From positions 3,100,001 to 3,164,000 of the forward strand of contig NZ_LT629758.1 in the NCBI RefSeq assembly GCF_900104725.1: a DNA stretch of 64,000 nucleotides. The letters are read 5' to 3'. The notes under the pieces were generated by a model. The model saw only the letters and a list, made by a program, of their open reading frames with translations. It ran no database searches and was not told the DNA's origin. The position numbers were made by a program, and so were the translations under genes. How positions within the stretch are numbered: position 1 is the stretch's first letter; each line of letters starts with the position of its first letter. Positions 1 to 59,634 of the stretch are shown here, in pieces. Source of the DNA: Actinoplanes derwentensis. Lineage in GTDB: Bacteria > Actinomycetota > Actinomycetes > Mycobacteriales > Micromonosporaceae.

Positions 1-8187
<8,187 letters not shown>

Positions 8188-8224: not shown

Positions 8225-8247
8225 AGCTCACACTTCGGTGTGAAGCT
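8225..8247. terminator. Short hairpin with TTCG loop between the PH-domain gene and the PKS
   Basis: AGCTCACAC, loop TTCG, then GTGTGAAGCT, with one bulged base. It lies in the 98-base gap after the stop of the upstream gene (8286) and before the PKS start (8187). It could be a weak terminator, an attenuator or a 5'-leader stabiliser. There is no T tract. Confidence 0.5.
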
Positions 8248-8285
8248 ATGCGCGGTCACCTACTGCCGAAGCCCCTGCCGCACCC

Positions 8286-10279: not shown

Positions 10280-10329
10280 TTTCCGGGCTTTGTGGAATTG
10301 CGCACTGGGGTGGTCCGGCCGGGTAGGGG

Positions 10330-14564: not shown

Positions 14565-15464
14565 TCAGCGGCGCGGGCGGACCAGGGCGCGCCGCAGGTC
14601 GCAGAGTTCGACGTCGAAGGCGGCGGTGGTGCCCCGCAGTTTGGCGAGCATCGTGTCGGGCCCGGCGATCCACAGCCGGTCCACACCCCGGTCGCGCAAG
14701 CCCTGGATGGTGTCCAGCCAGCGGATCGGCCGGACGAAACCGTCGAGCAGGGCGGTACGCAGCGCATCGGGCTCGGTGATCTCGGCGCCGTCGTGGTACG
14801 AGATGATCGGGACGCGGGGGGCCGCCAGCTCGTACCGGGCGTACACCTGCTCCATGCGGTCCCGGACTCCGGTGAACAGGGCGGCGTGTGCGGGCGGGCG
14901 CATCGTGTAGAGGGAGTAGCCGCCGGCGTCGCTGATCGCCGCTTTGAACCCGTCCAGCTCGTCCTCCCGCAGCGTCACCATGTGGAAGTCGGTGTCCAGC
15001 CGACCGGAGATCTCGTACCAGGCCAGCCCGGCCAGCAGTTCGCCGAGTTCGGGCACGCGGGTGAACGAGTGGGTGACGACGTCGCGGTGTTCGGTGGCGA
15101 AATACTCCTGTTCGGTACGGGCGATCTCGTCCACCAGGCGCACCGTGTCGGCCGCCGGGAGCGCTCCGGTCCAGCTCAGGGCGGCCCGTTCGCCGAAGCT
15201 GGGGCCGGCGCAGTACGCCGGGTCGGCGCCGAGTTCCTGTTGCGCCCAGTCGGCCAGGGCGAGGCAGGCGAGCAGCACCGCGACCTGTACCGGTGGTGAG
15301 TAGTCGTCCTCCGGCGCGTCGGCGAGGGCGTCGGCGAGGTGGTACCCGAGGGTGTCGTCGGCTTCAGCGAGCCGCTGCCGGGCGTACGGCGAGATCATCA
15401 GGAATGTCCCGAGGTCTCGTCGCCGGACCGGGGAGAGAGCGGGGAAGACGATGGCGCTGGTCAT
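14565..15464 (-). CDS. Discrete acyltransferase for PKS starter loading
   Basis: 299 residues, malonyl-CoA:ACP transacylase (FabD/AT) fold. The nucleophile motif is GPSFGERAAL rather than the usual GHSxGE, so the Ser is kept but the preceding His is Pro. A catalytic-type His appears in RPPAHAALF. Discrete ATs of this type move unusual starter acyl groups (for example 4-guanidinobutyryl) from CoA to a loading ACP. The PKS here begins with a bare ACP and needs such an enzyme. Start ATG overlaps the stop of the acyl-CoA ligase (ATGA), and the order ureohydrolase-ligase-AT forms one operon. Confidence 0.85.
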   Translation of the reverse strand: MTSAIVFPALSPVRRRDLGTFLMISPYARQRLAEADDTLGYHLADALADAPEDDYSPPVQVAVLLACLALADWAQQELGADPAYCAGPSFGERAALSWTGALPAADTVRLVDEIARTEQEYFATEHRDVVTHSFTRVPELGELLAGLAWYEISGRLDTDFHMVTLREDELDGFKAAISDAGGYSLYTMRPPAHAALFTGVRDRMEQVYARYELAAPRVPIISYHDGAEITEPDALRTALLDGFVRPIRWLDTIQGLRDRGVDRLWIAGPDTMLAKLRGTTAAFDVELCDLRRALVRPRR

Positions 15465-16864: not shown

Positions 16865-16884
16865 CGGCGGGGCCTTTCCAGGGC

Positions 16885-18003
16885 TCAGGTCAGCGGGAAC
16901 TTCAGCTGGCCGGAGGCGATCGGGTTGACGTAGTCGGCGCTGACCATCCCGGCCTTGCGCATGGCCAGGCCGGTCAGGCCCTCGAAGATGGCGCGGCGGG
17001 CATTCATCGTGGTGGTGTAGCCGGGGTCCAGGTGCGGGGCGACCTCCACCACGTCGATGCCGATGACGTTGGTCTCGGCACAGATCCGCCGGAAGGCCGG
17101 AAAGAGTTCGCGAGGTGTCAGGCCGCCGGGTTCCGGGGTGCCGGTGCCGGGGGCGTACGCGGGGTCCAGGACGTCGATGTCGAGTGACAGGTAGACGAAC
17201 TCGGGGCCGTCCTGGATCTCCTCGATGACCTTGTCGAGAACGGCGGTGAAGCCCTTGCGTTCGATCTCGACCATGAAGTGGGTCCGCAGTCCCTGCCGCC
17301 GCATCCAGTTGAACAGCTGGTCATCCGGCCCGGTCGGGGTGCGCAGCCCGACCTGCACGAAGTTCTTGCCGGGGATCTTCTTCTCCTCGATCAGCCGCCA
17401 GATCGGCGTGCCGTGGGTGATGCGGTGACCGAAGATGTGCTCGTGACAGTCGGGGTGAGCGTCGAAGTGGACGACGCCAACCTTGTCCGGGCCGTACAGG
17501 TCGGCCAGCGCGCCGACGCTGGCGATCATCAGCGAGTGGTCGCCGCCGAGGATCACCGGCACGGCTCCGGTCTCGGCGACCTCCTTGACGGTGCCGGCGA
17601 TCGAGGGCAGCGACTTCTCCACGCTGAAGATGTCGATCGCGGCGTCCCCGTAGTCGACCACCTTGAGCTGCTGGAACGGACTGACCCGAGTGCTGGCACT
17701 GATCATCAGCTCGGGCGTGTTGAACAGGTAGCGTTCGTCGGAGCGCAGGGCGCGGGGACCGTAAGCGGCACCCCGGTGACCGGACGACGAGTCCAGCGGC
17801 ACGCCGAGGACAGCGACGTCGACGCCACCGGCGCGCAGGTCCGCCGGTTCCAGGCAGACCGGCAGGCCCATGAAGGTCGGGATGCCGCTGTAGGCGGCCT
17901 GCAGGAAGTTGCGGCGCAGGTCGATCGGGCCGGGTTCGCGCGCGGGCGCCTGCGAACGGTCCACCGGAAGCTGCCAGACCTCACCCGCTCCGTTTTCCTC
18001 CAC
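16885..18003 (-). CDS. Agmatinase-family ureohydrolase (probable guanidino-group amidinohydrolase)
   Basis: 372 residues. Binuclear Mn motifs are complete: GGDHSLM, VVHFDAHPDCHEH and SLDIDVLDPAYAPGTGTPE. Family members release urea from agmatine, guanidinobutyrate or guanidino natural products. In a guanidinobutyryl-primed polyketide pathway it would unmask the terminal amine after assembly. Start is GTG 18003 with GAGGAAGAGG upstream. First gene of the operon with the ligase (20-base gap) and acyltransferase. Hydrolysis of free 4-guanidinobutyrate before loading is the alternative. Confidence 0.9.
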   Translation of the reverse strand: MEENGAGEVWQLPVDRSQAPAREPGPIDLRRNFLQAAYSGIPTFMGLPVCLEPADLRAGGVDVAVLGVPLDSSSGHRGAAYGPRALRSDERYLFNTPELMISASTRVSPFQQLKVVDYGDAAIDIFSVEKSLPSIAGTVKEVAETGAVPVILGGDHSLMIASVGALADLYGPDKVGVVHFDAHPDCHEHIFGHRITHGTPIWRLIEEKKIPGKNFVQVGLRTPTGPDDQLFNWMRRQGLRTHFMVEIERKGFTAVLDKVIEEIQDGPEFVYLSLDIDVLDPAYAPGTGTPEPGGLTPRELFPAFRRICAETNVIGIDVVEVAPHLDPGYTTTMNARRAIFEGLTGLAMRKAGMVSADYVNPIASGQLKFPLT

Positions 18004-39445: not shown

Positions 39446-40446
39446 GACGCGGCTGGAACCGTCAGCGACGCGAAGACCGCCCGGTGGTCGGAATCGGTCA
39501 CGCTGTGCACCGCGACGGCACGCACGCCGATCCGCTCGTCGACCAGCACGTGGTCGATGGTGACCAGGCCCTTGCCGCCGTTGAAAGCGGGCCAGCTCGG
39601 GACCAGGCCCTTGCCGACGGTGGCGGCGGCGTCCCGGTAACCGGTGTCGATCAGGTCCCGCAGCGGCGCGTGGTCGAGGGTGGCGTTGAAGTCGCCGAGC
39701 AGGATCTTCACCGGGCCGTCGCCACCGGCGGCCGGCTGCTCACGGAGGTCGGCACGCCAGCCGTCGTACATGTCCGGCCCGGCCGGGGCGAGCGGGTGCA
39801 CCGACTCCAGGTAGACAGGGGCGGCGCCGTCGGGCTGGATCGTCGCGGTGGCCTGCTGGAATCCGCCGTCGTTGTCCCGGGTCGACTGGGACAGCATCGG
39901 ATAGCGCGAGTAGAGACCCGAGCCACCGGCGTCGCGGGCGGCGGTGAGCTGCTGATGCGGCAGCAGGTCACCGATCCCGGCCGCTTTCAGTGAGGCCTCG
40001 CCGCGCGGGGTGAACTCCTGCACGGCGAGCACTGCCACGTCACCGTCGCGGACCAGCTGGACGATCTGGGCCGCGTCGGCCTCCCCGTACAACATGTTGA
40101 TCGTCAGCACCCGCAACGCGATCCCCTCGGTGGGGCCTTTGTCCAGGTCCGGCAGCGCCCGCGGCAGCACGCAGACGGCCATCCCGACGGCGACCGCCCC
40201 GGCCACCGCGGCGGCCGCCCAGCGCCGGGCGGCCAGCGCGGCGAGCAACGGGACCAGGGTCCACGCCGCCACGAACGGGGTGCCCGCGAACAGCATGATC
40301 AGGGCGCCGCGCTCCAGCCCGAACACCCGGCCGGCCAGCCAGAGTGCGCCGGGGATCAGCAGCAGCCAGATGATGACGGACACCGCGACTCGGCGTCCGG
40401 CCGGAGACACCACGGGTGGAGCGGTCGGCGAGTCGGTGATCGTCAC
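39442..40446 (-). CDS. Membrane-anchored endonuclease/exonuclease/phosphatase family protein
   Basis: 334 residues. Three N-terminal membrane segments (VSVIIWLLLIPGALWLAG; ALIMLFAGTPFVAAWTLVPLL; AAAVAGAVAVGMAVCV) precede an EEP domain: RVLTINMLYG, LAVQEF, LLGDFNATLDH, TIDHVLVDE, SDHRAVF. All metal and catalytic residues of the DNase I-like fold appear intact, so it is active outside the membrane or cell. Substrate is unknown (nucleic acid, phosphoester or lipid). Confidence 0.88.
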   Translation of the reverse strand: MTITDSPTAPPVVSPAGRRVAVSVIIWLLLIPGALWLAGRVFGLERGALIMLFAGTPFVAAWTLVPLLAALAARRWAAAAVAGAVAVGMAVCVLPRALPDLDKGPTEGIALRVLTINMLYGEADAAQIVQLVRDGDVAVLAVQEFTPRGEASLKAAGIGDLLPHQQLTAARDAGGSGLYSRYPMLSQSTRDNDGGFQQATATIQPDGAAPVYLESVHPLAPAGPDMYDGWRADLREQPAAGGDGPVKILLGDFNATLDHAPLRDLIDTGYRDAAATVGKGLVPSWPAFNGGKGLVTIDHVLVDERIGVRAVAVHSVTDSDHRAVFASLTVPAAS

Positions 40447-40467
40447 GCGGCAAAATTAGCCGCCGCA

Positions 40468-40520
40468 CCCTGACAGCACGCTGTGACAGCGGCCGAAGTC
40501 ACAGCGTGGGACGGTCAGGG
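40468..40520. terminator. Strong hairpin at the end of the UDP-glucose dehydrogenase operon
   Basis: Inner perfect arms CACGCTGTGAC / GTCACAGCGTG (40477-40487 and 40498-40508) around a 10-base loop, extended by outer arms CCCTGAC / GTCAGGG. It spans the ugd stop codon (40515). No T tract, as is common for actinomycete terminators. Confidence 0.75.
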
Positions 40521-41828
40521 ACGGCCCGGCGCCCGGTACTGCCAGCCGGCGTCGCGCCAGACGTCCGGGTCGAGCACGTTGCGGCCGTCGACGATGTTGC
40601 GCCGGGCGACGACCGCGCCGAGCACCTCCGGGTCGAGCTCGGTGAACTCGGTCCATTCGGTGAGCAGCAGGACCACCGTCGCCCCGGTGGCCGCGTCGAG
40701 CGCGGACTCGGCGTAGTTCAGGGCGGGGTACTTCTTGCGGGCGTTGTCGAGTGCGGCCGGGTCGTAGACCGAGACCAGCCCGCCCTCCCGGTCGATCGCG
40801 GTGGCCACGTCGAGGGCCGGCGAGTCCCGGATGTCGTCGGAGTCCGGCTTGAACGCGGCGCCGAGCACCGCCACCCGGGCACCGTCGATCGAGCCGCCGA
40901 GCAGCTGCCGGGCCAGGGCGGCGACCCTGGTCCGGCGCCTGGTGTTGATCGCGTCGACCTCCTCGAGGAAGGCCAGCGCACGGCCGGCGCCCAGTTCGTC
41001 GGCGCGCGCCATGAACGCCCGGATGTCCTTGGGCAGGCAGCCGCCACCGAACCCGACGCCCGGGTGCAGGAAACGGCCGCCGATCCGGGTGTCGTACGAC
41101 AGCGCCCGGGAGAGTTGGACCACGTCCCCGCCGGTGGCCTCGCAGACCTCGGCCATCGCGTTGATGAAGGAGATCTTGGTGGCCAGGAACGCGTTGGCGG
41201 CGACCTTGACCAGTTCGGCGGTGGTGAAGCCGACCGTCACGGTCGGGATGTCGCCGAGGGGCGAGTACACCTCCCGCAGGATCATCTCGGCGCGCCGGTT
41301 GCGGACCCCGAGCACGATGCGGTCCGGGCGCAGGGTGTCCTGCACGGCGAAGCCCTCGCGGAGGAACTCCGGGTTCCACGCCAGGTCGGTCCGCACCCCG
41401 GCCGGGGCGAGTTCGGCCAGCCGGTCGGCCAGTCGTTCCGCGGTGCCGACCGGGACCGTGGACTTCCCGACGACCAGGCAGTCCTTGACCAGGTGCGGTG
41501 CCAGGGCCTCGATCGCCGCGTCGAGCTGCGAGACGTCGGCCCGGTACTCCCCCGGCTTCTGCGGGGTGCCGAGGCACAGGAAGTGCACGTCACCGAACCC
41601 GGCGGCCTCGGCGTACGACGTGGTGAACCGCAGTCGCCCGCTGTCCAGCCCGCGGCGCAGCAGTTCACCCAGCCCGGCCTCGTAGATGGGTAGTTCACCC
41701 GCGTTGAGCTGGCGGACCTTGTCCTCGTCGATGTCCAGCCCGAGCACCTCGTAGCCCAGGTCGGCCATGCAGGCGGCGTGGGTGATGCCGAGGTAGCCGG
41801 TGCCGATGACAGTCATCCAATACCGCAT
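40515..41828 (-). CDS. ugd: UDP-glucose 6-dehydrogenase
   Basis: 437 residues. NAD motif MTVIGTGYLGITHAACMAD, LVVGKSTVPVGTAE, LAWNPEFLREG, catalytic Cys in VGFGGGCLPKD near 265, and LGAAFKPDSDDIRDSPALD near 320. Oxidises UDP-glucose to UDP-glucuronate. Last gene of a five-gene operon (15 bases after the MFS gene), so it probably supplies UDP-glucuronate for the glycosyltransferase-like protein encoded upstream. Confidence 0.95.
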   Translation of the reverse strand: MRYWMTVIGTGYLGITHAACMADLGYEVLGLDIDEDKVRQLNAGELPIYEAGLGELLRRGLDSGRLRFTTSYAEAAGFGDVHFLCLGTPQKPGEYRADVSQLDAAIEALAPHLVKDCLVVGKSTVPVGTAERLADRLAELAPAGVRTDLAWNPEFLREGFAVQDTLRPDRIVLGVRNRRAEMILREVYSPLGDIPTVTVGFTTAELVKVAANAFLATKISFINAMAEVCEATGGDVVQLSRALSYDTRIGGRFLHPGVGFGGGCLPKDIRAFMARADELGAGRALAFLEEVDAINTRRRTRVAALARQLLGGSIDGARVAVLGAAFKPDSDDIRDSPALDVATAIDREGGLVSVYDPAALDNARKKYPALNYAESALDAATGATVVLLLTEWTEFTELDPEVLGAVVARRNIVDGRNVLDPDVWRDAGWQYRAPGRP

Positions 41829-41843
41829 GTGCTGACTCCACTT

Positions 41844-43055
41844 CTAGGGTGAGACGGCCCGCAGCCGCCGGATGGGTGCCACCAGCAGCAGGGCGATGGC
41901 GCAGCCGAGACTCATCACGGTCGCCAGCAGCAACAGCGGCCGGACGCCGAGCAGGTGGGTGGCCGGGCCGGAGATGACCTGGCCGAGGGGGACGGCCAGG
42001 ATCGACCCGGCGATCTCGTACGCGGAGACGCGGTTGAGCCGGTCGGCCGGGATCTGGGTCTGGATCGTGGTGGCCCACTGCACGCCCCAGAACGCCCAGC
42101 CGAGCCCGCTCACCGCGTAGCCGAGCAGCAGCAGCGGGATCGACGGGGTCAGAGCCGCGGCCAGGGGCATCAGCGGGAAGAGGAACATCGCGATGCCACC
42201 GGCCAGCAACGGGCGCGTGGCCCGGATCCGGATCGCGACCAGGGCGCCGAGCACCGAGCCCGCGCCGAAGGCCGCCTCGGCGTACCCGAACGCGGCCTTA
42301 CCGTGCTCACCGATGATCGACACCGCGCCGACCGGGGTGATCGGGCCCCAGACGAAGACGCCGAGCACCCACCAGATCAGGATGACCGCCCACAGCCAGG
42401 ATCGGGAGCGGAAGTCGTCCCAGCCGAACCGCAGGTTCTCCAGCATCGAACCGGACCGGTCGACGGTGAACGCCGGCAGGCGCAGCGCGGCGAGGCAGAT
42501 CCCGCTGATCACGAAGGTGGCGGCGTCGACGGTGAACGCCACCGCCGGTGTCGTGGTGGCGACCAGGACGCCGCCGATCGCCGGGCCGGCCATGGTGGCC
42601 AGTCCCTGGCTGACCCGGACCACCCCGTTGGCCTTCTGCACGTCGGTGGAGACCTGCGGCACCAGGCTGTTCAGGCCGGGCTGGAACATCGCTGTCGCGA
42701 GACCGCCGATCAGCGAGGTGCCGATCAGGAACCACAGTGGGGTGTCGCCGGCCCAGATCCAGGCGGCCAGGGCCAACTGGACCACCGCGCGGACCACGTC
42801 GGCGCCGATCATCTGGGGCCGGGGGTGGAAGCGGTCCGCGAACACCCCGCCGAACACGACGAAGAGCGCGAACGCTCCCATCCAGGCGCCGAGGGCGTAG
42901 CCGATGCCGCTCACGCCGTAGCCGAGGCCGAGCATAGCGACCGCCAGGGCGACCGGAACCATCGTGTCGCCCAGCACCGACATGATGCGGGCGGTGAAGT
43001 ACAGGGTGAAGTTGCGGTTCCACAGGCGCACGGGCGGAGCGTCGGTCACAGCCAT
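41844..43055 (-). CDS. Major facilitator superfamily exporter (EntS-like)
   Basis: About 403 residues from ATG 43055 (AGGAAC upstream region and conserved start of homology at LWNRNFTLYFTARIMSVLGD). Twelve membrane segments by eye; FADRFHPRPQM-type motif between segments 2 and 3, and QGLATMAGPAIGGVLVA in segment 5. The EntS-like MFS group exports siderophores and macrolides. Its place inside the biosynthetic operon suggests it exports the operon's product. Confidence 0.9.
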   Translation of the reverse strand: MAVTDAPPVRLWNRNFTLYFTARIMSVLGDTMVPVALAVAMLGLGYGVSGIGYALGAWMGAFALFVVFGGVFADRFHPRPQMIGADVVRAVVQLALAAWIWAGDTPLWFLIGTSLIGGLATAMFQPGLNSLVPQVSTDVQKANGVVRVSQGLATMAGPAIGGVLVATTTPAVAFTVDAATFVISGICLAALRLPAFTVDRSGSMLENLRFGWDDFRSRSWLWAVILIWWVLGVFVWGPITPVGAVSIIGEHGKAAFGYAEAAFGAGSVLGALVAIRIRATRPLLAGGIAMFLFPLMPLAAALTPSIPLLLLGYAVSGLGWAFWGVQWATTIQTQIPADRLNRVSAYEIAGSILAVPLGQVISGPATHLLGVRPLLLLATVMSLGCAIALLLVAPIRRLRAVSP

Positions 43056-43071
43056 CTGGAAAGTTCCTTTG

Positions 43072-44871
43072 CTATTGGAGGGACAGCTCGACACCATAGG
43101 TGCTGATCCAGCTGTCCACTTGCAACACGGTCTCCAGCACGGCGCGGCTGACGCCGCCTTCCAGAGCCTTCACCCCGATTTCCCGTACGTCCTTCAGGAA
43201 CCGTTGCGACAGCAGCGGGCCGATCGCGCTCGCCGGATCACCGGCCAGCGTCACCACCCGCTCGCGCAGCACCTGGTCGTAGATCCGGTCCCGCAGGTTC
43301 GGGTAGGGCAGCTTGACCCGGTTCGCCACCGGCTCCGGCAGCAGGTCCTTCATCGCCGCCCGCAGCAGGCTCTTCTCCCGGCCGTCGAAACTCTTCATCG
43401 CCCAGGGGATGTTGAAGGTGTAGTCGACCAGCCGGGGATCGGCGAACGGGATCCGCACGTCCAGCCCGGACGCCATGCCGAGCCGGTCGAGGCGATCGAA
43501 CAGGACCCGCGAGTGCCGGGTGTGCGCCAGATAGGTGACCTCCCGGAACCGGGCCTCGGTCTTGTCGTCGAGGTGGTCGCCGGCCGCGATCTCGGCGAGC
43601 GCCGCCCGGTGACAGTCGTATTCATAACCGGCCAGGTCGAGCCCGGCGAGCAGCGCCGGATCGAAGACGACGTCGTTGCCGGCGAACCGCGGCCGGCCCT
43701 CGTGGACCCACGGGAACGTGTCGGTCATGACCAGTTCGGGCAGCCGCAGCCAGTTGTAGCCGCCGAACACGTCGTCGCCGAGTTCGCCGGAGAGCGCGGC
43801 GGGCGAGTGCTCGCGGGCGGTCCGGAACAGCAGGTGCAGCGACGCGTACTGGTCGCCCTTGTTGATCGGGATGTCGTAGGCGGCCAGCACCGACGCCCGC
43901 AGCTGCGGGTCGAGCAGCCGCCCGGTGTCCAGCGGCAGCTCACGGTGGTCGGTGCCGACGTGGTCGGCGAGCATTCTGGCGTAGAGGTGGTCGTCGTTGC
44001 CGGGCGCGCCCGAGTCGTGGGCCGGGTCGCGGTCGCTGACGGCCAGGGAGAGCAGCGGGCCGCGGCCCTGCCGGTTCGCCTCCTGAACGGCCAGGGCGGT
44101 CAGGCTGCTGGAGTCGAGCCCGCCGGAGAGCAGTGAACAGGGCAGCGCGTCGCCGGCGAGGCGTTCGGCGACGATGCTCTCCAGCATCTCCCGGACGGTG
44201 CCGATGGTGCGGTCCAGCGAGTCGGGGTGATCCCGGACCGCGAGACGCCAGTAGGGCTGCTCGTCCAGGCCGGCTCTGGTCACCCGTACGACATGACCGG
44301 GTTTGACCTCTCGCATGCCGCGGAAGATCGCGTGGCCCGGCACCCGGGCGACGGACAGGATGTCGCGGAGCCCGTCGGTGTCCAGGACGGCCCGGAAACC
44401 GGGATGCGCGAGGATGACCTTGGGCTCGGAGCCGAAGATCACCCCGTCCGGAGTGGGCGCGAAGAACAGCGGCTTGACGCCCATCTGGTCCCGGACCAGG
44501 AGCAACTCCTGACGGCGGACGTCCCAGACCGCGAAGGCGTAGGTGCCGCGCAGGTGACCGGCCAGGTCGGGCCCCCACTCCAGGTAGGCCCGCAGCACCA
44601 GCTCCCGGTCGCCGGCGCCGGACGCTCCGAGACGGGCCCGGATCTCGGCCCGGTTGTGGATCTGTCCGGCGAAGGTCACCACGGCGTGTGGTGACGGCTC
44701 ACCGGCCGCGGCGGCCGGCTGTCCGCGATGGGCCAGCACCGCGTGCTCGAAGGACCAGACGGTGCCGGTGCCGGGGGCTCGCCGTGCCAGGGTGGTGGTC
44801 ATGGCGTGCGCGACGTCCAGCTCCGGGGAAACGTCCCGAACGAAATCGACCCAGCCCGCAATGCCGGACAT
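43072..44871 (-). CDS. Asparagine-synthetase-like amide ligase without the glutaminase cysteine
   Basis: 599 residues. The first residues are MSGIAGWVDF where glutamine-dependent synthetases have MCGI, so the N-terminal nucleophile Cys2 is Ser. Other glutaminase positions are also eroded (RRAPGTGTVW for RRGPD-type, FAGQIHNRAEI for YNGEIYN-type). The ATP pyrophosphatase domain is intact: LLSGGLDSSSLTAL near 235, LSGELGDDVFGGYNW near 360. Similar loss of glutaminase function is known in beta-lactam synthetase and lasso cyclases, which use an internal or external amine rather than ammonia. I infer that it makes an amide bond in the operon's product. It is third of five genes. Confidence 0.88.
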   Translation of the reverse strand: MSGIAGWVDFVRDVSPELDVAHAMTTTLARRAPGTGTVWSFEHAVLAHRGQPAAAAGEPSPHAVVTFAGQIHNRAEIRARLGASGAGDRELVLRAYLEWGPDLAGHLRGTYAFAVWDVRRQELLLVRDQMGVKPLFFAPTPDGVIFGSEPKVILAHPGFRAVLDTDGLRDILSVARVPGHAIFRGMREVKPGHVVRVTRAGLDEQPYWRLAVRDHPDSLDRTIGTVREMLESIVAERLAGDALPCSLLSGGLDSSSLTALAVQEANRQGRGPLLSLAVSDRDPAHDSGAPGNDDHLYARMLADHVGTDHRELPLDTGRLLDPQLRASVLAAYDIPINKGDQYASLHLLFRTAREHSPAALSGELGDDVFGGYNWLRLPELVMTDTFPWVHEGRPRFAGNDVVFDPALLAGLDLAGYEYDCHRAALAEIAAGDHLDDKTEARFREVTYLAHTRHSRVLFDRLDRLGMASGLDVRIPFADPRLVDYTFNIPWAMKSFDGREKSLLRAAMKDLLPEPVANRVKLPYPNLRDRIYDQVLRERVVTLAGDPASAIGPLLSQRFLKDVREIGVKALEGGVSRAVLETVLQVDSWISTYGVELSLQ

Positions 44872-44934
44872 GAGACTCCTCTGAAAAGTCGTGGGGGTGG
44901 TGCCGGGGCGCCCGAGGACGCCCCGGCGGTGGGG

Positions 44935-46734
44935 TCAGATCCGGTGGTCGTTGGCGCCGTGGATGTCGCAGGCGTACCACTGGGCCAGGGCGCGCATGCC
45001 CTCGAAGATCGGCGCGGTCGGCCGCCACCGCAGCTCGGCGGTGATCAGGCCGGTCTCCAGAGCCCAGTGCTCGGCGGGCCCGTCGACGGTTTCCCAGGGC
45101 GTCTTGCGGGAGGCCTCGGCCAGCAGAGCGGCCAGTTCCTGTTCGCCGTACGTCGCCGAGGCCACGTTGAGCACCGGCCGGGCCGCCGGGGCGGACAGCA
45201 CGGCGCCGATCGCGCCGGCCATGTCCCGGTAGTCCAGCACGTGGTGCACGCCGTCCGGGTTGAGCCGCAGCGGCTGGCGGGTCCATGCCAGGTGGACGAA
45301 CTCCCGTGGGGTGGTGCCGTCCGGGGCGTACGGGCCGACCGGTGCGGCGAGCCGCAGGACCTGGACCGGGATCCCGCTGTCCCGGCAGCGTTGTTCGGCG
45401 AGCCACCACTGCCGGGCCACCGGATCGGCGGGTTCACCGGTGACCGACGACTCGGTGGCCGGTCCCGCCCCGAGACCCCGGTAGACCGCGGTGGAGGAGA
45501 GGTAGACGAGCCGGCCGGCCACCGCGAGCACGCCGTCCAGCAATGTCGCGTCCTCGGCGGGGCTGCCGAGGTGCACCACGGAAGCGGTGTCCCCGATGTC
45601 GGCCGGGGCGGCCACGTAGGACGCCCGGAACCCGAGATCGCCCAGCAGCGCGGCCAGTTGGCGGCCGGCGTCCCGGTCGGGGCCGGTGACGGCCACCCGT
45701 GGGCTCACCGCGGGTGCCGGGTCCTGACGTCCCTGGTGGAGCGCCTGCAGCGCCAGGTCACGGACCGGGTGTGACAGGGCGATCAGCTCGTCGACGGTGT
45801 ACTCCTCGCACAGGCCGCCCGCCCCCAGGGTCTCCATCACCGCGGCGGCGACCGACGGGTCCGGCTCGGGTTCGTCGGCGGTGACGGCGCCGATAGCGAA
45901 GGCGGTCAGCCAGACCGCCCGGCTGATCCGGCCGGGCAGCTCGGTGGCCGCCGCCGCGTAACCGGCCAGGCAGCGGTCCAGCACGCCGATCCGGCTCAGG
46001 TAGCGATCGGTCTCGACGTAGTCCCAGTCCGCACCGTCCCGCACGGCGCAGCGGGCGTCGCCGTACTGGTAGAACGGCACCACGTCGAACCGGGCGGCGT
46101 CGTACGACTCCGGTTCGCCCGCCTTGCCGGTGTAGAGGGTGGCCTGCCGGTAGCCGTGGTAGCTGTTGCCGGCCAGGCTGGGCAGTTCGGTGTGCTGGAC
46201 CGTGCTCGGGGTGCAGAACCGCACCGGGATGCCACGGGCGTTCAGGTAACGCTGCACGACCACGTCGTACGGCCAGCCGTCGCCGTGTTCCTCCTGGTAG
46301 GCGGCGTAACCGCGGGCGACCTCGGCAGGCAGCATCAGCGCCTGGCACGGCGTGTGCTCCTGCAGGGTGTACGCCCACTCCACGCCGGTCAGCGCGGCCA
46401 GCCGGGCCACCGCGCCGTTACGGGCCTCCCATCCGGCGTAGAACGAGATCGCCTCGCCCGGCGCCGCCGCGGCCGCCCGCTCGGCGTGGTCGAAGAATCC
46501 GTCGGCCAGCTCCACGTCGTCCTGGAGCACCAGGTGGTGGGTGGCGTCCGGCGGCACACACGACCAGGTCAGCGGGGCGGTGCGCAGGGCGGTCGGACGG
46601 CCGGACGGATCGGGGTCGGTGACGACCAGGATCCGGCCCGCCGGGTCGGCGTCGGCGATGAGCTGGGCTTCGGCGAGGCGCTTCGGGTGCGCCATCACCG
46701 CTCCGCTCAGGGTCACGGGCTGTCGTGATGTCAC
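44935..46734 (-). CDS. Glycosyltransferase-like / NAD-dependent epimerase-like fusion
   Basis: 599 residues from GTG 46734 (GAGG 6 bases upstream). The N-terminal half resembles GT25/GT-A glycosyltransferases: HLVLQDDVELADGFFDH near 66 with a DxD-like DDVE, CQALMLPAEVA, WPYDVVVQRYLNARGIPVR, then STVQHTELPSLAGNSYHG. The C-terminal half (about 345-590) is an extended SDR: VAVTGPDRDAGRQLAALL, VYLSSTAVYRG, then QWWLAEQRC where YxxxK is expected, so the catalytic Tyr and Lys appear to be replaced; VLRLAAPVGPYAPDG and LDYRDMAGAI follow. Second of five genes, 7 bases after the dioxygenase. It would pair with UDP-glucuronate from the operon's dehydrogenase. Confidence 0.75.
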   Translation of the reverse strand: MTSRQPVTLSGAVMAHPKRLAEAQLIADADPAGRILVVTDPDPSGRPTALRTAPLTWSCVPPDATHHLVLQDDVELADGFFDHAERAAAAAPGEAISFYAGWEARNGAVARLAALTGVEWAYTLQEHTPCQALMLPAEVARGYAAYQEEHGDGWPYDVVVQRYLNARGIPVRFCTPSTVQHTELPSLAGNSYHGYRQATLYTGKAGEPESYDAARFDVVPFYQYGDARCAVRDGADWDYVETDRYLSRIGVLDRCLAGYAAAATELPGRISRAVWLTAFAIGAVTADEPEPDPSVAAAVMETLGAGGLCEEYTVDELIALSHPVRDLALQALHQGRQDPAPAVSPRVAVTGPDRDAGRQLAALLGDLGFRASYVAAPADIGDTASVVHLGSPAEDATLLDGVLAVAGRLVYLSSTAVYRGLGAGPATESSVTGEPADPVARQWWLAEQRCRDSGIPVQVLRLAAPVGPYAPDGTTPREFVHLAWTRQPLRLNPDGVHHVLDYRDMAGAIGAVLSAPAARPVLNVASATYGEQELAALLAEASRKTPWETVDGPAEHWALETGLITAELRWRPTAPIFEGMRALAQWYACDIHGANDHRI

Positions 46735-46741
46735 CGGTGCC

Positions 46742-47518
46742 TCAGTTCTCGGCGAAGTCGGCGTTGCGGACCTTGCGCTCGTTGTCCTCCAGGCCGTGGT
46801 CCATGCCCTGTTCCCGTTCGAGCGCGATCATCGAGGCCGGGCGGTAGTTGAGGATGTACGCCCGGCGCTGCAGCCCGGTGGTGTTGCCCCGCGAGTAGTG
46901 CAGTGTGGTGCCGGAGTGGGCGGCACCCTGACCGGGCGAGAGCGGCACCGCGGTCGCGCCGGGCTCGTCCTCGGAGCAGTCACATTCGATGTTGCTGCCG
47001 TCGCTGGTCGGGCGGTGGACTCGCAGCGGCTGCCGGTGCGAGTCCCGGACGTACCACATGCAGCCGTTGTCCGGCACGGCCTCGTCGAGGGCCACCCAGA
47101 TGGAGACGGCGCGCTTGTCGGGCAGGTCGATCCAGTACGCCGCGTCCTGGTGCCAGGGCGTCGCGACACCGCTGTGCGGGGCCTTGTGGATCAGCATGTC
47201 GAAGTCGAGGATCGCGTCGTCGCCGATCAGCTCCTTGGCGATGGCCAGTCCCCGGACGTGCAGCGGCATCTCGATCAGCTGCTTGTACAGGTCGGACGGC
47301 CACATGATCTGCGTGATGTTCTCCCTTTCGGCGTCCTTGCGGGGCACGTGCGATCCCAGGTCGGAACGCTTGTCGCCACTCTCGATATCGCCACTGATGA
47401 AACGGTCGTAAATAGCGCGGTACGTTTCGACCTCATCCGGCGTGAGAATGGAGTCAATAACAGCGAAACCGTTCTGGTGGAATTCTTTGGACAGGTCGGT
47501 GCCGGCACTAACGGACAT
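46742..47518 (-). CDS. Phytanoyl-CoA dioxygenase (PhyH) family Fe(II)/2-oxoglutarate enzyme
   Basis: 258 residues from ATG 47518, chosen for the AAAGGGA site 6 bases upstream and the immediate start of homology (FHQNGFAVIDSILTPDEVE). The iron-binding triad is visible: His and Asp in TPWHQDAAYW near 138, and the distal His in AAHSGTTLHYSRGN near 211, with a 2-oxoglutarate-binding Arg in the following RRAYILNYRP. Members hydroxylate small molecules. It leads the five-gene operon, so hydroxylation of the ligase or glycosylation substrate is likely. Confidence 0.88.
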   Translation of the reverse strand: MSVSAGTDLSKEFHQNGFAVIDSILTPDEVETYRAIYDRFISGDIESGDKRSDLGSHVPRKDAERENITQIMWPSDLYKQLIEMPLHVRGLAIAKELIGDDAILDFDMLIHKAPHSGVATPWHQDAAYWIDLPDKRAVSIWVALDEAVPDNGCMWYVRDSHRQPLRVHRPTSDGSNIECDCSEDEPGATAVPLSPGQGAAHSGTTLHYSRGNTTGLQRRAYILNYRPASMIALEREQGMDHGLEDNERKVRNADFAEN

Positions 47519-47948
47519 GACGGATCCCTTTCTCGAAACAGATGACTCACACGCCGCCGGCGGAACCCGGGCAGGCGGAATCGACCTGGGACACCGCGAT
47601 GTGTCCAGGCGTATCAGCTGGTGGAAGGCCACTCGGCGATCAGACGCCGAGGGCGGGATGGGTTCCGGCTACGCCCGACGCGCAGCACCCTGGATGTGAA
47701 GCATTCCCTCTGACCCCCGTCAATGTTCTGCAACTTGCACGACCCTACCAACAGGTTTCTTAACAGAACAACCCCGTTACCCTCCGCAGTGGATGCACCG
47801 AGGGCCGGTAACCAGGAAACCCAAGGCCAAAGAGTGTGCGGATCGGCAAGTGATCCAGGTTACATTGTGGTTCTTGATTCAGCCTGCTGTGATCCTGGCG
47901 AAAACGGCCCGCCTCCCATTCGGGCCGGTGAATTCAGGAGGATCCGTC
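47519..47948. promoter_or_regulatory. Divergent 430-base intergenic region
   Basis: Lies between the dioxygenase operon (minus) and the His-rich gene (plus). AT-richer stretches near 47715-47780 and 47850-47885 are likely promoter zones for the two directions, but no convincing hexamer pair or operator was found. Confidence 0.45.
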
Positions 47949-48545
47949 ATGACGGTCGTGCGCGCACACCATCACCACAACCCCTATGACCATCTGTTCG
48001 GCGGCGACGAGTTCGACGAACTGCTGCGGGACCTCGGACAGCGGCGCGCGGCCAGCATCGAACACCACCACCGGGCCGGGACGTACCCGCGCGCCGCCAT
48101 GGGGTTCGTCATCCTGGACCCGACCGCGGGCCCCTGGGTCCCGAACACCTCGGCGGTACTGGGTGCCATCACGATCGGGCCGGACAGCGAGCGTTTCCTG
48201 CCCAACGCCGCCGCCAAAGCCGGCGGCCACCGGCGGCTGGGCCGCAACTACGGCGAGGCGGTCCTGGTCGACCCGCATCTGTGCGGGCGGGCCGCGTTCC
48301 GGTACGGCCACTCCGCACAGGTCCGCGGAGTCATCGTCGGCGCCAGCTCACAGGCCCCCGACCAGGATCTCTACGAAGCGGGACAGCTGGCCGCCGACTT
48401 CGTCACCGCGATCGCCGCACGGCAGGCCGGCTGGGAGTCGAAGACCGGCGAGACCGACTGGCTGTCCGCCGACGACCGCCCCGACCGGGAATACCGCGAC
48501 ATGGTGTCCTTCTTCGATGCCGGAGCACCTGCCGATCGGCCATGA
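47949..48545 (+). CDS. Histidine-rich hypothetical protein
   Basis: 198 residues from ATG 47949, with a strong AGGAGG site 7 bases before it. His clusters occur at the N-terminus (RAHHHHNPYDHLFGG) and near 38 (IEHHHRAG), which could bind metal. The middle (GFVILDPTAGPWVPN; GVIVGASSQAPDQD) is globular without a recognised fold. No signal peptide or membrane segment. It is divergent from the PhyH operon and could share its control region. Confidence 0.7.
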   Translation: MTVVRAHHHHNPYDHLFGGDEFDELLRDLGQRRAASIEHHHRAGTYPRAAMGFVILDPTAGPWVPNTSAVLGAITIGPDSERFLPNAAAKAGGHRRLGRNYGEAVLVDPHLCGRAAFRYGHSAQVRGVIVGASSQAPDQDLYEAGQLAADFVTAIAARQAGWESKTGETDWLSADDRPDREYRDMVSFFDAGAPADRP

Positions 48546-53203: not shown

Positions 53204-54211
53204 GTGCGACCCTCACTCATCCGAAGACTCGGTGTCTTCGCCGGGACGGTGGCCGTCCTCGGCGTGGCCGTCGTCCTCAGCCTGATGGTGGGCCGGCAGG
53301 CGATCTCCCCAGTGGACGTCCTCCACGCGCTGATGCCCGGCGCGACCGGCGACAACGCTGACATCGTCCGTGGACTCCGGCTCGAACGAACCGTCATCGG
53401 CCTGGTCGCCGGTGCGGCCTTCGGCGGTGCCGGCGCCCTCATGCAGGCCCTCACCCGCAACCCGCTCGCCGATCCCGGCCTGCTCGGCGTCAACGCCGGA
53501 GCCGCCGCCGCGGTGGTGACCGGCTTCGCGGTCTTCGGTGTCACCGACGGTTTCGCACAGACCTGGCTCGGCCTGGCCGGCGCCGCCATCGCGTCGGTCG
53601 CCGTCTACCTGCTCGGCAGCGGCTCCCAGTCGGCGGCCACCCCGGCCCGGCTCGCCCTGGCCGGGGCCGCGCTGACCGCGGTGCTGTTCTCCTACATCAC
53701 CGCACTGTCCATGCGTGACCAGGACAGCTATAACGAGATGCGGTTCTGGGTGGTCGGCTCGGTGGTCAACCGCGGCATGGACCGGCTGCTGCTCGCACTG
53801 CCGCTGATCCTGGCCGGCGTCGTGATCGCGTTGCTGGTGACCCGGTCGTTGAACGCGATCGCGTTCGGCGACGACACCTCGAAAGCCCTCGGCCTCGGTC
53901 TCGGCAAGGCCCGGATCGCCACCGCCGTCGCCATCACCCTGCTCTGCGGCGCCGCCACCTCGGTCGCCGGGCCGTTCGTCTTCGTCGGACTCGCCGTACC
54001 GCACGTGGCCCGGATCCTGGCCGGCGCCGACCAGCGCAAGGTGATCCCCCTGTCGATGCTGCTCGCGGCCGCGTTCCTGGTCCTCTGCGACACCCTCGGC
54101 CGGATCGTCTCCAGCGGCGCCGAGATCGAGGCCGGCGCGGTGACCGCCATCCTGGGAGCCCCCTTGTTCATCGCTCTCGTGCGCCGCCGCACCCTGACGG
54201 CCACCTCATGA
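53204..54211 (+). CDS. FecCD-family ferric-siderophore permease, first subunit
   Basis: 335 residues, about ten membrane segments. FecCD signatures: RTVIGLVAGAAFGGAGALMQALTRNPLADPGLLGVNAGA near 65-100, FVGLAVPHVARILAGADQRK near 263. GTG start directly follows the predicted promoter. First gene of the uptake operon, overlapping the next by 4 bases. Confidence 0.95.
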   Translation: MRPSLIRRLGVFAGTVAVLGVAVVLSLMVGRQAISPVDVLHALMPGATGDNADIVRGLRLERTVIGLVAGAAFGGAGALMQALTRNPLADPGLLGVNAGAAAAVVTGFAVFGVTDGFAQTWLGLAGAAIASVAVYLLGSGSQSAATPARLALAGAALTAVLFSYITALSMRDQDSYNEMRFWVVGSVVNRGMDRLLLALPLILAGVVIALLVTRSLNAIAFGDDTSKALGLGLGKARIATAVAITLLCGAATSVAGPFVFVGLAVPHVARILAGADQRKVIPLSMLLAAAFLVLCDTLGRIVSSGAEIEAGAVTAILGAPLFIALVRRRTLTATS

Positions 54212-55233
54212 CCCTCTTGAAAGCGGGCCCCTTCTCGGTACGGGTTCGCCACCGCAGCCTGCTCGTCAGCGTCGTCCTGCTCGCGCTGCTGGCCGCGGCC
54301 CTGCTCGCGACCCTCGCGGCCGGGGTCAACGCGTTCCCGATCCCGCGCGTGATCGCCGCCGTCCTCGGTGACGGCACCCCCGCCGAGAACCTGATCATCG
54401 GCGAACTGCGCCTGCCCCGAGCCGTCGTCGCCGCCCTGGTCGGCATCGCGTTCGGAGTCTCCGGCGGCATCTTCCAGTCGATCACCCGCAACCCGCTCGG
54501 CAGCCCCGACGTCGTCGGCTTCAGCGTCGGCGCCTCCACCGGCGCCCTCGTTGTCCTGCTCGTCCTCAAAGGCAGCCTGGCCGCCACCTCACTCGGCGCC
54601 GTCGCCGGTGGCACGGTGACCGCCGCGCTCGTGTTCGCACTGTCCTCCCGGGGCGGCGTCGCCCCACTGCGGCTGGTCCTGGTCGGCATCGGCCTGGGCG
54701 CCGCCCTGAACGCCCTGAACTCGCTGCTGATCGTGCGCGCCCAGGTCTACGACGCGCAGAGCGCCTCGGCGTGGCTGGTCGGCAACCTGGTCGGCCGCGA
54801 CTGGGACGAAGCCCGCCTGGTCGGCGGGGTCCTGATAGCCGGCTTCGTGCTGAGCCTGGTCCTGCACCGGCCGCTGTCGCTGAGCGAGTTCTCCGACGAA
54901 CGGTCCGCCAGCTTCGGCCTGTCCACCGACCGGACCCGGCTGCTCGCCGTCGGCACCGGCGTCCTGCTCGCCTCGGGTGCCGTCGCCGTCGCCGGGCCGA
55001 TCCAGTTCATCGCCCTCACCGCCCCCCAGGTCGCCCGCCGGCTGACCGGCGCGCCGGGCCCCAACCTCGTCGCCTCCGGACTGACCGGCGCGCTGCTCCT
55101 GGTACTCGCCGACCTGGCGGCCCGCGAGGCGTTCCAGCCGCGGCAGCTGCCGGTCGGCGTCCTCACCGGCCTCGTCGGAGGCCTGTATCTCGCGTGGCTA
55201 CTGAGCCGCGAATGGCGAAAGGGCAGAGCATGA
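54208..55233 (+). CDS. FecCD-family ferric-siderophore permease, second subunit
   Basis: 341 residues. LPRAVVAALVGIAFGVSGGIFQSITRNPLGSPDVVGFSVGAS near 70-110 and QFIALTAPQVARRLTG near 270 mark the family. Heterodimer partner of the upstream permease. ATGA overlaps at both ends show tight coupling. Confidence 0.95.
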   Translation: MTLLKAGPFSVRVRHRSLLVSVVLLALLAAALLATLAAGVNAFPIPRVIAAVLGDGTPAENLIIGELRLPRAVVAALVGIAFGVSGGIFQSITRNPLGSPDVVGFSVGASTGALVVLLVLKGSLAATSLGAVAGGTVTAALVFALSSRGGVAPLRLVLVGIGLGAALNALNSLLIVRAQVYDAQSASAWLVGNLVGRDWDEARLVGGVLIAGFVLSLVLHRPLSLSEFSDERSASFGLSTDRTRLLAVGTGVLLASGAVAVAGPIQFIALTAPQVARRLTGAPGPNLVASGLTGALLLVLADLAAREAFQPRQLPVGVLTGLVGGLYLAWLLSREWRKGRA

Positions 55234-56033
55234 CCTCGCGACTGCGGGCCGAACAGGTCACGCTCGGCTACGACGGCCGGGCGATCGTGCACGACCTGGA
55301 CCTGACCGTGCCGGACGGGTCGTTCACCGCCATCGTCGGCGCCAACGGCAGCGGCAAGTCCACCCTGCTGCGCGGGCTCGCCCGGCTGATGAAACCGCAG
55401 GGCGGCGCGGTCATCCTGGACGGCAAGGCCATCCACGACCACCCGTCCAAGGAGGTCGCCCGCCGGCTCGGGCTGCTCCCCCAGTCCCAGTCCGCGCCGG
55501 AGGCGATCAGCGTCGCCGACCTGGTGGCCCGCGGCCGCTACCCGCACCAGTCACTGTTGCGCCAGTGGTCACCCGCCGACCAGACCGCGGTGACCGCCGC
55601 CCTGGAACTGACCGACACCTCCGGTCTCGCCACCCGAGGATTCCACGAACTGTCCGGCGGCCAGCGGCAACGGGTCTGGCTGGCGATGGCCCTCGCGCAG
55701 GAGACCGACATCCTGCTGCTCGACGAGCCGACCACCTACCTGGACATCGCCCACCAGATCGACGTGCTCGACCTGTGCGCCCGGCTCCGCCGCGAACGCG
55801 GCTCCACCCTGGTCGCGGTCCTGCACGACCTGAACCTCGCCGCCCGCTACGCCACCAACCTGGTGGCCATGAAGGACGGCCGGATCGTGGCCGAGGGCGA
55901 CCCCACCACGATCATCACCCCCGAACTCATCGAAGAGGTCTTCGGGCTCGCCTGCCGCATCATCACCGACCCCGAGTCGAAGACGCCTCTGGTCATCCCG
56001 CGTCACACCCCTGAGAGGACCCCCACTTCATGA
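55230..56033 (+). CDS. Ferric-siderophore ABC transporter ATP-binding protein (FecE-type)
   Basis: 267 residues from ATG 55230, overlapping the previous TGA. Walker A VGANGSGKSTLLRGL near 42, signature ELSGGQRQRVWLAMALAQ near 143, Walker B DILLLDEPTTYLDIAHQ, switch His in VAVLHDLNLAARYA. The DEPTTYLDIAHQ segment is typical of siderophore importers. Confidence 0.96.
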   Translation: MTSRLRAEQVTLGYDGRAIVHDLDLTVPDGSFTAIVGANGSGKSTLLRGLARLMKPQGGAVILDGKAIHDHPSKEVARRLGLLPQSQSAPEAISVADLVARGRYPHQSLLRQWSPADQTAVTAALELTDTSGLATRGFHELSGGQRQRVWLAMALAQETDILLLDEPTTYLDIAHQIDVLDLCARLRRERGSTLVAVLHDLNLAARYATNLVAMKDGRIVAEGDPTTIITPELIEEVFGLACRIITDPESKTPLVIPRHTPERTPTS

Positions 56034-57034
56034 TCAATAAAATTGCCGGTACGGCCATGGCGCTCGTCGCGTCACTCGCCCTGACCGCTTGCGGTGGTGG
56101 CACCGAGGCCGCCACCACCGACAGCGCCGCCTCCACCGCGCCCGCCGGCCCGTTCGAATACACCGACGCCCTCGGCAAGGCCATCAAGCTGGACAAGGCG
56201 CCGTCCGTCGTCGTCGCGCAGAGCAGCGTCGCCGCCGCACTGCTGGACGCCGGTTTCCAGGTCAAGGGCGCCTACGGCGAACTGAAGCCGGACGCCGCAG
56301 GCAAGCTCAGCTACCAGGCCGGTTCGCTGGACCTCAACAAGATCACGGTGGTCGGCAGCACCTACGGTGAGTTCGACACCGAGAAGTACGCGCTGATGAA
56401 CCCGGAACTGCTCGTCGACTACACGTTCGACGCCAAGACCCTCTGGTACGTCCCGGCCGCCCAGTCCGAGAAGATCCTCGGCCTCGCGCCCGCCGCCGCC
56501 GTCCCCGGCAACTACGAGACCACCGACGAAGCCATCGAGACCTTCGTCGACCTGGCCGGCAAACTCGGCGCCGACACCGCCCGGACCGACCTGACCACCG
56601 CCAAGGCCGACTACACCACCGCCCTCACCGCCATCGGTGAAGCCGCCAAGGCGTCCGGTCTCAAGGTCGCCATCATGTCGCCGGGCACCGACAGCCTCTA
56701 CGTCGCCGACCCCGCGTACCTGCCCGAGGGCAACACCCTGAAGAAGGCCGGCCTCGACGTGGTCAGCCCGGAGAACCCGAAGAAGGAGGTCTTCGCGCAG
56801 CTCAGCTGGGAGCAGGCCACCCAGTTCACCGACGCCGACGTGATCCTGGTGGACGCCCGCACCTACGACGCCGGCAAAGCCGACCTGGCGAAGGTCGCGA
56901 CCTGGGCGAACCTGCCCGCTGTCAAGGCCGGTCAGGTCTACAACTGGTACGCGGCCGCGCCGTACTCCTACCAGTCGTACGCGAAGATCTACGCCGAGCT
57001 GGCCGCCCAGCTCAAGGCCGCGAAGAAGCTCTGA
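56030..57034 (+). CDS. Siderophore-binding lipoprotein (FecB/FepB-type)
   Basis: 334 residues. Lipoprotein signal MINKIAGTAMALVASLA with lipobox LTAC, then a Ser/Thr/Ala linker and a periplasmic binding fold (DALGKAIKLDKAPSVVVAQ; DTEKYALMNPELLVD). Delivers the ferric siderophore to the FecCD pair. The siderophore itself is not made by genes in this window. Confidence 0.94.
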   Translation: MINKIAGTAMALVASLALTACGGGTEAATTDSAASTAPAGPFEYTDALGKAIKLDKAPSVVVAQSSVAAALLDAGFQVKGAYGELKPDAAGKLSYQAGSLDLNKITVVGSTYGEFDTEKYALMNPELLVDYTFDAKTLWYVPAAQSEKILGLAPAAAVPGNYETTDEAIETFVDLAGKLGADTARTDLTTAKADYTTALTAIGEAAKASGLKVAIMSPGTDSLYVADPAYLPEGNTLKKAGLDVVSPENPKKEVFAQLSWEQATQFTDADVILVDARTYDAGKADLAKVATWANLPAVKAGQVYNWYAAAPYSYQSYAKIYAELAAQLKAAKKL

Positions 57035-58468: not shown

Positions 58469-59634
58469 ATGGCTGACCAAGCGAAAGTGAAGGATGTCCT
58501 GGCGGAGTTCCGCGACCGCAGCGCTCGTTCTGCCACACCTACGGGCGCGGCAAGGACGAACACCGCATGATCCCCGGCTGGCCGTACTCGATCGTCGACG
58601 CCTTGGAGACCGGCCGGACCTCCTGGACCGCGCTGCTCGACGCGGTTCGCCTGCCGCCCGGCGCGAACGTCACCACGATCACGTGCGCGCAGATCCGGCA
58701 GCTCGTCGACCGCCTCACCGGCGCCGGGCAGTGGAAGCTCGGTGACCGCGACATTCTCATCGTGCTCGACGCTGGCTACGAGGCGCCGCGCATAGCGTGG
58801 CTGCTGCGTGACCTGCCGGTGGAGATCCTCGGCCGGATGCGCTCCGACCGGGTGCTGCGCCGAGCGACCCCTCCACGGGCCTACAACCCCGACGGCGGGC
58901 GCCCGGCCAAGCACGGCGGGGAGTTCGTCTTCGGTGACCCCGCCACTTGGGATGTCGAGCAGGCGGTCACGCGCACCGACACCCGGCTCTACGGCCAGGT
59001 GAAGACGCAGGCGTGGGACCGGCTGCATCCGCGGCTGACGCGTCGGGCGGCCTGGGTCGACCATGACGGGGCGTTGCCGATCATCGCCGGCACGGTCATC
59101 CGGCTCACAGTCGACCACCCGCCCAGCCACGGTGAGCCGAAGCCGGTTTGGCTGTGGTGGTCCAAGGTCGACGCCACCGATGCTGATGTCGACCGGTGCT
59201 GGCAGGCATTTCTGCGCCGTTTCGACATCGAGCACACCTTCCGCCTGCTGAAACAGACGCTCGGCTGGACCGCCCCGCAGCTCCGCGAGCCCGCCGCCGC
59301 GGACCGCTGGACCTGGCTCATCCTGGCCGCGCATACTCAGCTGCGCTTGGCCCGGCCCCTCGCCCAGGACCTACGCCGACCATGGGAACGCCCGATGGCA
59401 CCGGAGCGGCTCACGCCGGCCAGGGTGCGACGGGGGTTTCGGAACCTCCGAGCGACCAGCGGCTCACCAGCGCGTGCACCTAAACCCAGCCGCCCGGGCC
59501 CCGGACGCCCGCCAGGCTCCCGCAATCGGCAGTCCGCCGCTCGCCACGACGTAGGACTCATCCTGGTCACCGGCCAGGCACACCAACGACCGGCCCGCCA
59601 CAAGAAGGGCACCAAGCCCTGCCGAACTGGTTAA
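58469..59634 (+). mobile_element. IS transposase with internal deletion (inactive remnant)
   Basis: A normal start (MADQAKVKDVLAEFRDR) is followed by a frame jump to RSFCHTYGRGKDEHRMIPGW, then a long open frame from 58567 to the end (MIPGWPYSIVDALE..., DIEHTFRLLKQTLGW with the catalytic Glu and Lys of the DDE/YREK type). Roughly 50-80 residues of the N-terminal part, including the first catalytic Asp, are missing. Terminal repeats were not identified. It separates the DUF664 gene from a truncated P450-like gene. Confidence 0.8.

Follow-up and report, generated by a model that had tools for sequence, protein, structure and literature searches.

Beta-lactam synthetase and the lasso cyclases are AsnB-fold synthetases with a non-functional glutaminase, loss of the glutaminase nucleophile being a common mark of both, and the uronamide pathway of moenomycin uses MoeE5 and AsnB-like enzymes. 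For surface sugars of Porphyromonas and Pseudomonas, a Wbp sugar dehydrogenase pathway is described that, together with the AsnB-like WbpS, yields a uronamide (PMC7468200), and a TsnB-type hydroxamate transfer has also been described (PMC13418202). The window analysed here, i.e., the whole 64,000-nucleotide stretch (bases 3100001-3164000) of the 10.65-Mb, one-contig genome of Actinoplanes derwentensis, contains five minus-strand genes, encoding a PhyH oxygenase, a glycosyltransferase/short-chain dehydrogenase-reductase (GT/SDR) fusion protein, an AsnB-like ligase, a major facilitator superfamily (MFS) exporter and a UDP-glucose 6-dehydrogenase (UGD), and a divergent sixth gene, HP199. This set has in common with Wbp/WbpS a nucleotide-sugar dehydrogenase pathway and an AsnB-like amidotransferase, here one that would act on a uronic acid; unlike that system, it adds PhyH, a GT fused to a pseudo-SDR, an MFS exporter and an HbpS-like protein (HP199).

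We consider it somewhat better than an even chance (a probability of roughly 0.55) that these genes form a self-contained specialised-metabolite cluster that makes, decorates and exports a glycosyl-uronic acid amide. A preliminary description of this DNA, which had proposed a pathway to a glycosylated amide or pseudopeptide, had found no PKS or NRPS (polyketide or nonribosomal peptide synthetase) and no described cluster to match: the operon indeed has no PKS or NRPS genes of its own, and our literature searches for the gene combination, which covered open-licence papers and did not extend to MIBiG, came back empty, the metabolite family thus being apparently undescribed. Separate searches on uronamides showed no such gene make-up among the papers listed, and no cell-wall roles were found for the orthologues.

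A search with the GT/SDR protein, in which 7993 candidates were scored, gave 89 relatives, 76 of which cover at least 97% of the protein, and we compared the window with 14 other loci that have a close full-length copy (L031-L034, L063-L071 and L083, in Streptomyces, Kitasatospora, Streptantibioticus and Actinokineospora; L084 coincides with L067 and was left out of the counts). As the loci were picked by GT/SDR, that protein itself carries no weight in the conservation counts. An exporter is present in all 14 loci, AsnB and a nucleotide-sugar dehydrogenase in 13 each, PhyH in 12 and HP199 in 11, so that the gene-neighbourhood check suggested in the preliminary description found the set to recur rather than to lack conservation. 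The loci are of two types. Type A (the window, L031-L034, L063, L069 and L070) has the MFS exporter of the window (69-74% identical in 7/7 loci), its UGD (71-75% identical in 6/7, not L031) and an AsnB with Ser2 (L069, where the start is uncertain, aside); type B (L064-L068, L071 and L083) has a different MFS, a different nucleotide-sugar dehydrogenase (25-30% identical to UGD) and an AsnB with Cys2 in each of the six copies present. PhyH, GT/SDR, AsnB and HP199 are orthologous across the two types, and this non-orthologous swap of dehydrogenase and exporter, with their roles kept, is the strongest argument for a pathway logic. Gene distances also correlate, host descent not being controlled for in any of these values, over 15 gene pairs with 6-14 loci each (r 0.63-0.95, e.g., 0.82 for PhyH-AsnB and 0.94 for GT/SDR-UGD; permutation p ≤0.04 in 14 pairs and 0.06 for PhyH-UGD). 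At 1e-12 each of the other called genes of the window matched one of the 14 loci at most; the exception was an ABC ATPase, matched in two. We considered and rejected as further cluster members the genes for a phosphatase (39442), a methyltransferase (37919) and a GCS2 ligase (36131), shared at 1e-12 by none of the 14 loci, as well as the FecCD genes (53204), matched at that threshold in one.

The distribution of close full-length GT/SDR copies is patchy: one of 250 genomes of the window's own family (the window genome itself), two of 394 of its class (own included), six of 392 genomes of the genus of L067, taken to be Streptomyces, one of 249 of the Actinokineospora family (the one already known) and, in the genus to which Kitasatospora aureofaciens belongs, four of 70 genomes, not counting a copy cut at a contig end (G1057, residues 6-321), which was left out of the loci studied. 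In PLSDB, whose regions came without gene annotation, GT/SDR was found on three plasmid records from two strains, including megaplasmids. Cluster hosts span at least three actinobacterial families (the window's own, Streptomycetaceae and Pseudonocardiaceae), and a relative protein named for Streptosporangium represents a fourth. Such patchiness is what one would expect of a metabolite cluster that can be transferred. A regulator gene related to the LmbU family is present in five of the seven type A relatives (L031, L033, L063, L069 and L070; the one copy scanned, from L033, scored 219 bits against the family cut-off of 125), and the sole LmbU-family gene of the window genome lies about 3.5 Mb from the operon. 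These observations bear on an alternative, surface or exopolysaccharide decoration, in which UGD, GT and AsnB would equip a wall glycan with uronamide residues and the MFS would be an unrelated efflux protein. AsnB-type uronamide enzymes do occur in surface sugars (PMC7468200), and UGD matches the models of TuaD and AglM, in both cases with 356 bits and thus far under the cut-offs of 700 and 670. However, a gene so rare and scattered (1/250 and 6/392 genomes, as above), an exporter kept at 14/14 loci and an LmbU-type regulator in five all argue against a role in the wall. So does the lack of any polymerase, flippase or priming transferase from the window that accompanies the set, the other window genes matching so few of the 14 loci. 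We regard surface decoration as improbable.

The identities that the preliminary description gave to the oxygenase, exporter and dehydrogenase were borne out. PhyH (PF05721, 109 bits) belongs to the Fe(II)/2-oxoglutarate oxygenase family; the exporter matches MFS_1 (88 bits) and, under its cut-off, TIGR00900 (148 bits); and UGD has all three UDPG/MGDP dehydrogenase domains (195, 106 and 93 bits) and passes TIGR03026 (412 bits versus a cut-off of 190), its four paralogues in the genome being weaker (best 42%). In PhyH, H123, D125, H207 and R219 are kept in 12/12 aligned copies (the window and 11 others; L083 lies outside the alignment), an HxD...H...R centre in common with the everninomicin and avilamycin oxygenases EvdO2, EvdO1 and AviO1. 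Halogenases have HxA/G instead of the HxD triad; with the Asp of the facial triad present we rejected that function, and judging from its residues PhyH would be a hydroxylase or cyclase. The nearest solved relative is the orthosomycin oxygenase EvdO2 (4xab, 104 bits, the next at 51), matched over residues 11-229 of 258. In another alternative the product would be an orthosomycin-like saccharide, in which PhyH would link sugars by closing a C-O ring (an orthoester, a methylenedioxy bridge or one of another kind) and AsnB would only tailor. The nearest solved relative tells little of the reaction, however, and unlike the everninomicin and avilamycin clusters the set has no multiple GT, deoxysugar or PKS genes, its glycosyltransferase gene being single; we hold this alternative to be improbable in the same degree as surface decoration.

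The ligase (Asn_synthase, 201 bits; TIGR01536, 299 bits versus a cut-off of 267) was rightly called AsnB-like in the preliminary description, a label that hides an eroded glutaminase site. Unlike WbpS, the type A enzyme lacks the glutaminase Cys, and the window copy scores 209 bits against the WbpS model TIGR03108 (eps_aminotran_1; cut-off 817), a type B copy reaching 353. The window protein has Ser2 where the nucleophile Cys is expected; among 133 aligned rows 34 have Ser2 and 97 Cys2, the other two showing other letters from uncertain starts. We read the glutaminase columns against a Cys2 reference protein at what we take to be Arg49, position 74, Gly75, Glu76 and Asp98 in E. coli numbering. 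All 97 Cys2 rows keep Arg49, Gly75, Glu76 and Asp98, with Ser/Thr at 74, versus Arg49 in 15, Gly75 in 34, Glu76 in 11 and Asp98 in 21 of the 34 Ser2 rows, where position 74 is variable; the window copy has lost the Arg49 loop and carries Ala and Gln at positions 74 and 76, but keeps Gly75 and Asp98. Its synthetase motifs, the PP-loop SGGLDSS and the equivalent of catalytic E348, are intact, and in the 88 of 133 rows displayed the Glu348 equivalent is found in every one and SGGLDSS in nearly all (the exceptions being P0213 and P0243, which read SGGLDSG, and P0254, which is gapped there). In a search with this protein 4099 of 7997 scored proteins reached 1e-120, the best 120 of them all with at least 554 bits. 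A search of the window genome gave only two other AsnB relatives, about 30% identical. On a tree of 90 of those 120 proteins, in which the window protein (P0194) and P0251 form long branches of unsure placement, Ser2 is a single change (28/90 proteins, SH-aLRT 99; 0/500 shuffles as low). From these residues, glutamine use was probably lost once, in the Ser2 branch, and the type A enzyme should still activate a carboxylate. With the glutaminase site eroded, the amide of type A would derive from another amine or from free ammonia, probably not from glutamine; a glycosylated amide remains the best product class, as the preliminary description had it, but its AsnB cannot be assumed to draw ammonia from glutamine.

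An eroded AsnB might instead act like beta-lactam synthetase or a lasso cyclase and close an intramolecular lactam in an amino-uronic or amino-acid glycoside, and there are matches below cut-off to the lasso cyclase model (154 bits, cut-off 525) and the macrolactam cyclase model (103 bits, cut-off 300). Similarity of the window AsnB to these enzymes is low (61 bits for beta-lactam synthetase), substrates matching theirs are not in the set, and no source of an amino group was seen in type A, so that we rank a lactam just behind the two alternatives above as unlikely. Least likely of all is a hydroxamate or siderophore, i.e., an iron chelator exported by the MFS after an AsnB transfer of hydroxylamine as in TsnB9: the best PDB match of AsnB is a hydroxyamidotransferase (7ylz, 406 bits, which we take to be TsnB9) of the same fold with a YSGETYN stretch common to type B, HP199 is an HbpS-like partner, and FecCD permease and periplasmic binding genes for iron or cobalamin-type uptake lie at 53204-57034 of the window, but 7ylz is not specially close (the best 120 of the 4099 proteins all score higher), it retains the Cys2 that type A lacks, we noticed none in the set that would form hydroxylamine among its genes, and FecCD is matched in only one of the 14 loci. 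We therefore dropped a filing of AsnB with TsnB9 by its PDB match, and consider TsnB-type hydroxamate transfer less likely than uronamide formation.

The GT/SDR protein matched no Pfam or NCBIfam model at 1e-3. Its SDR half was recognised in three homologues (PF01370) and through predicted structure, where it adopts an NDP-sugar (nucleoside diphosphate sugar) epimerase fold. The catalytic Tyr and Lys of the YxxxK motif are absent in all 73 homologues covering the region, V and W standing at these positions in the alignment to 1r6d. Without them the SDR half is probably no epimerase; we rejected a UDP-GlcA epimerase role, and unlike the MoeE5 route of moenomycin the SDR here is both stripped of its catalytic residues and fused to a GT. 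In the fusion described earlier, "SDR" holds as a fold assignment only. The N-terminal domain (about residues 1-325) we read as GT-A-like, with D58 D59 (a DD/DxD-like motif) invariant in 33/33 rows. Matches in a viral library were to GT/GT25 models (E 1.9e-4 to 6e-3), which are weak and for which the aligned part is not stated; the PDB fold list for the whole protein was filled by the SDR half, and when a profile of the GT half was run against PDB the best match was a guanylyltransferase (E 0.013).

HP199, overlooked in the earlier count of five genes, belongs to the gene set: among the 392 Streptomyces genomes it is present in exactly six, the same six as close full-length GT/SDR. No Pfam family matched it up to E 1. 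Its predicted fold, over about residues 11-158 with the remainder unmatched, is that of the GlcG/HbpS/DUF336 proteins (PF03928; e.g., HbpS, EfgA and PduO-C).

If the set makes a glycosyl-uronic acid amide, UGD would make UDP-glucuronate (the type B dehydrogenase another NDP-uronate), and the GT-A-like domain would move a sugar onto a small acceptor, while the non-catalytic SDR domain fused to it would serve as a structural module or one that binds sugar nucleotides. AsnB would then adenylate a carboxylate, in all likelihood that at C6 of the uronate, and form an amide, for which type B would use ammonia from glutamine and type A, the window included, free ammonia or a different amine. PhyH may hydroxylate or oxidatively cyclise the sugar or the acceptor, the MFS would export the product, and HP199 may act as a sensor or helper that binds heme, iron or a small ligand. 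The order would thus be NDP-uronate supply, glycosyl transfer, amide formation, oxidation and export; substrates, acceptor, product, step order and activity are all as we infer them. Several points weigh against such a pathway. The set contains no scaffold-making enzyme, which leaves the acceptor unexplained, and no gene was seen in it that supplies a special amine; the GT half matched no GT family model, and the nearest solved relative of AsnB, 7ylz, is no uronate enzyme. The type A locus L031 has no UGD nearby, and the 25.8 kb of the type B locus L083 contain no AsnB. PhyH is missing from L071 and from L069, a locus that starts at a contig end, and HP199 from these two and from L031. L103 has a third architecture, in which AsnB and the dehydrogenase and exporter of type B are kept and PhyH and HP199 are missing.

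L103 is one of ten distant loci of the Actinokineospora family (L103-L112) in which partners occur singly or in part: L105-L108 have an MFS relative (49-51%), L104 a weak exporter match, L112 a dehydrogenase and L109-L111 none of the partner genes, while PhyH and HP199 are in none of the ten. A further twelve loci (L072-L082 and L085), in which the sole GT/SDR relative is a distant one, showed no partner gene at 1e-8.

Cluster finders key on PKS, NRPS, RiPP (ribosomally synthesised and post-translationally modified peptide) or terpene cores; the six-gene set has none of these, yet recurs in scattered actinobacterial genomes. An exported sugar amide would make it a small, easily cloned pathway, and the Cys2-to-Ser2 switch, which falls on one branch and comes with different sugar and exporter genes, allows a change of AsnB amine donor to be tested directly with existing orthologue pairs. 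More speculatively, and we think it rather doubtful, the products could be new natural products, glycosyl-uronoyl amides for which a dead-glutaminase AsnB would couple a sugar acid with an amine other than ammonia and need no PKS, NRPS or tRNA, with a catalysis-stripped epimerase fold fixed in a glycosyltransferase. Types A and B would then be a natural experiment, dehydrogenase and exporter changing alongside the amide donor.

Table 1. Features of the operon and its divergent neighbour, in window positions
Feature	Coordinates	Strand	Basis
PhyH oxygenase gene	46742..47518	-	open reading frame + Pfam
GT/SDR fusion gene	44935..46734	-	GTG start
AsnB-like ligase gene	43072..44871	-	open reading frame + Pfam
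MFS exporter gene	41844..43055	-	open reading frame + Pfam
UDP-glucose 6-dehydrogenase (UGD) gene	40515..41828	-	open reading frame + Pfam/TIGRFAM
Inverted repeat, possible terminator closing the operon	40477..40508	-	repeat search + folding
HP199, divergent sixth gene, predicted HbpS/GlcG (DUF336) fold	47949..48545	+	no family model
Divergent intergenic region PhyH/HP199, presumed regulatory	47519..47948	.	position only

The reading frames (Table 1) confirmed the tight spacing first noted for the five genes, with gaps of 7 (PhyH-GT/SDR), 63 (GT/SDR-AsnB), 16 (AsnB-MFS) and 15 (MFS-UGD) bases. For the MFS gene we took the ATG at 43055, preceded by AAAGGAAC; the mechanical open reading frame begins at 43097, a start that would overlap AsnB. 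At the operon end, where a strong hairpin had been noted, an inverted repeat lies past UGD, with 16-nt arms (40477-40492 and 40493-40508, 88% complementary), folding of 40440-40530 gave -45.7 kcal/mol (z -2.8; 3/200 shuffles equally good), and TAATTTTG starts 18 bases beyond the repeat, but a terminator-pattern scan of the region was at chance level (4 found versus 2.3 +/- 1.6 in shuffles), which counts against a hairpin terminator. No sigma-70-type promoter was found in a scan of the region. The start contexts of PhyH and HP199 (47511-47527 and 47940-47956; 17 nt, 88%) both contain GGATCCGTCATG, which we dropped as a candidate operator as the leaders inspected in relatives (11 for PhyH and 10 for HP199, a part of them with uncertain starts) did not show it.

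Among the comparison loci, the L103 set (990-10303), whose AsnB has Cys2, lies with its GT/SDR gene together with a GT4 gene and a YcaO-TfuA pair, and is perhaps a thioamide or thio-sugar variant. The distant GT/SDR relative in L105 is beside a Polysacc_synt_2 dehydratase and a DegT aminotransferase, which, like the sugar dehydrogenase of L112, counts in favour of the proposed sugar amide pathway. L073, L077, L079 and L085 each contain a gene that we read as an amidinotransferase, its match being weak and of the arginine-deiminase type, and L073 and L085 also a radical SAM gene (the L085 copy was scanned in both cases). Beside the type B cluster of L064 is a reading frame (14345-17446) with a stretch that, on inspection, we take to resemble an IucA/IucC siderophore synthetase. 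Elsewhere in the window, two ASpks antisense RNA matches (2548-2619 and 6817-6888) fall within a long minus-strand frame (1-8259) taken as a PKS gene, and a DDE transposase-like gene lies at 58567-59634, about 10 kb off the operon.
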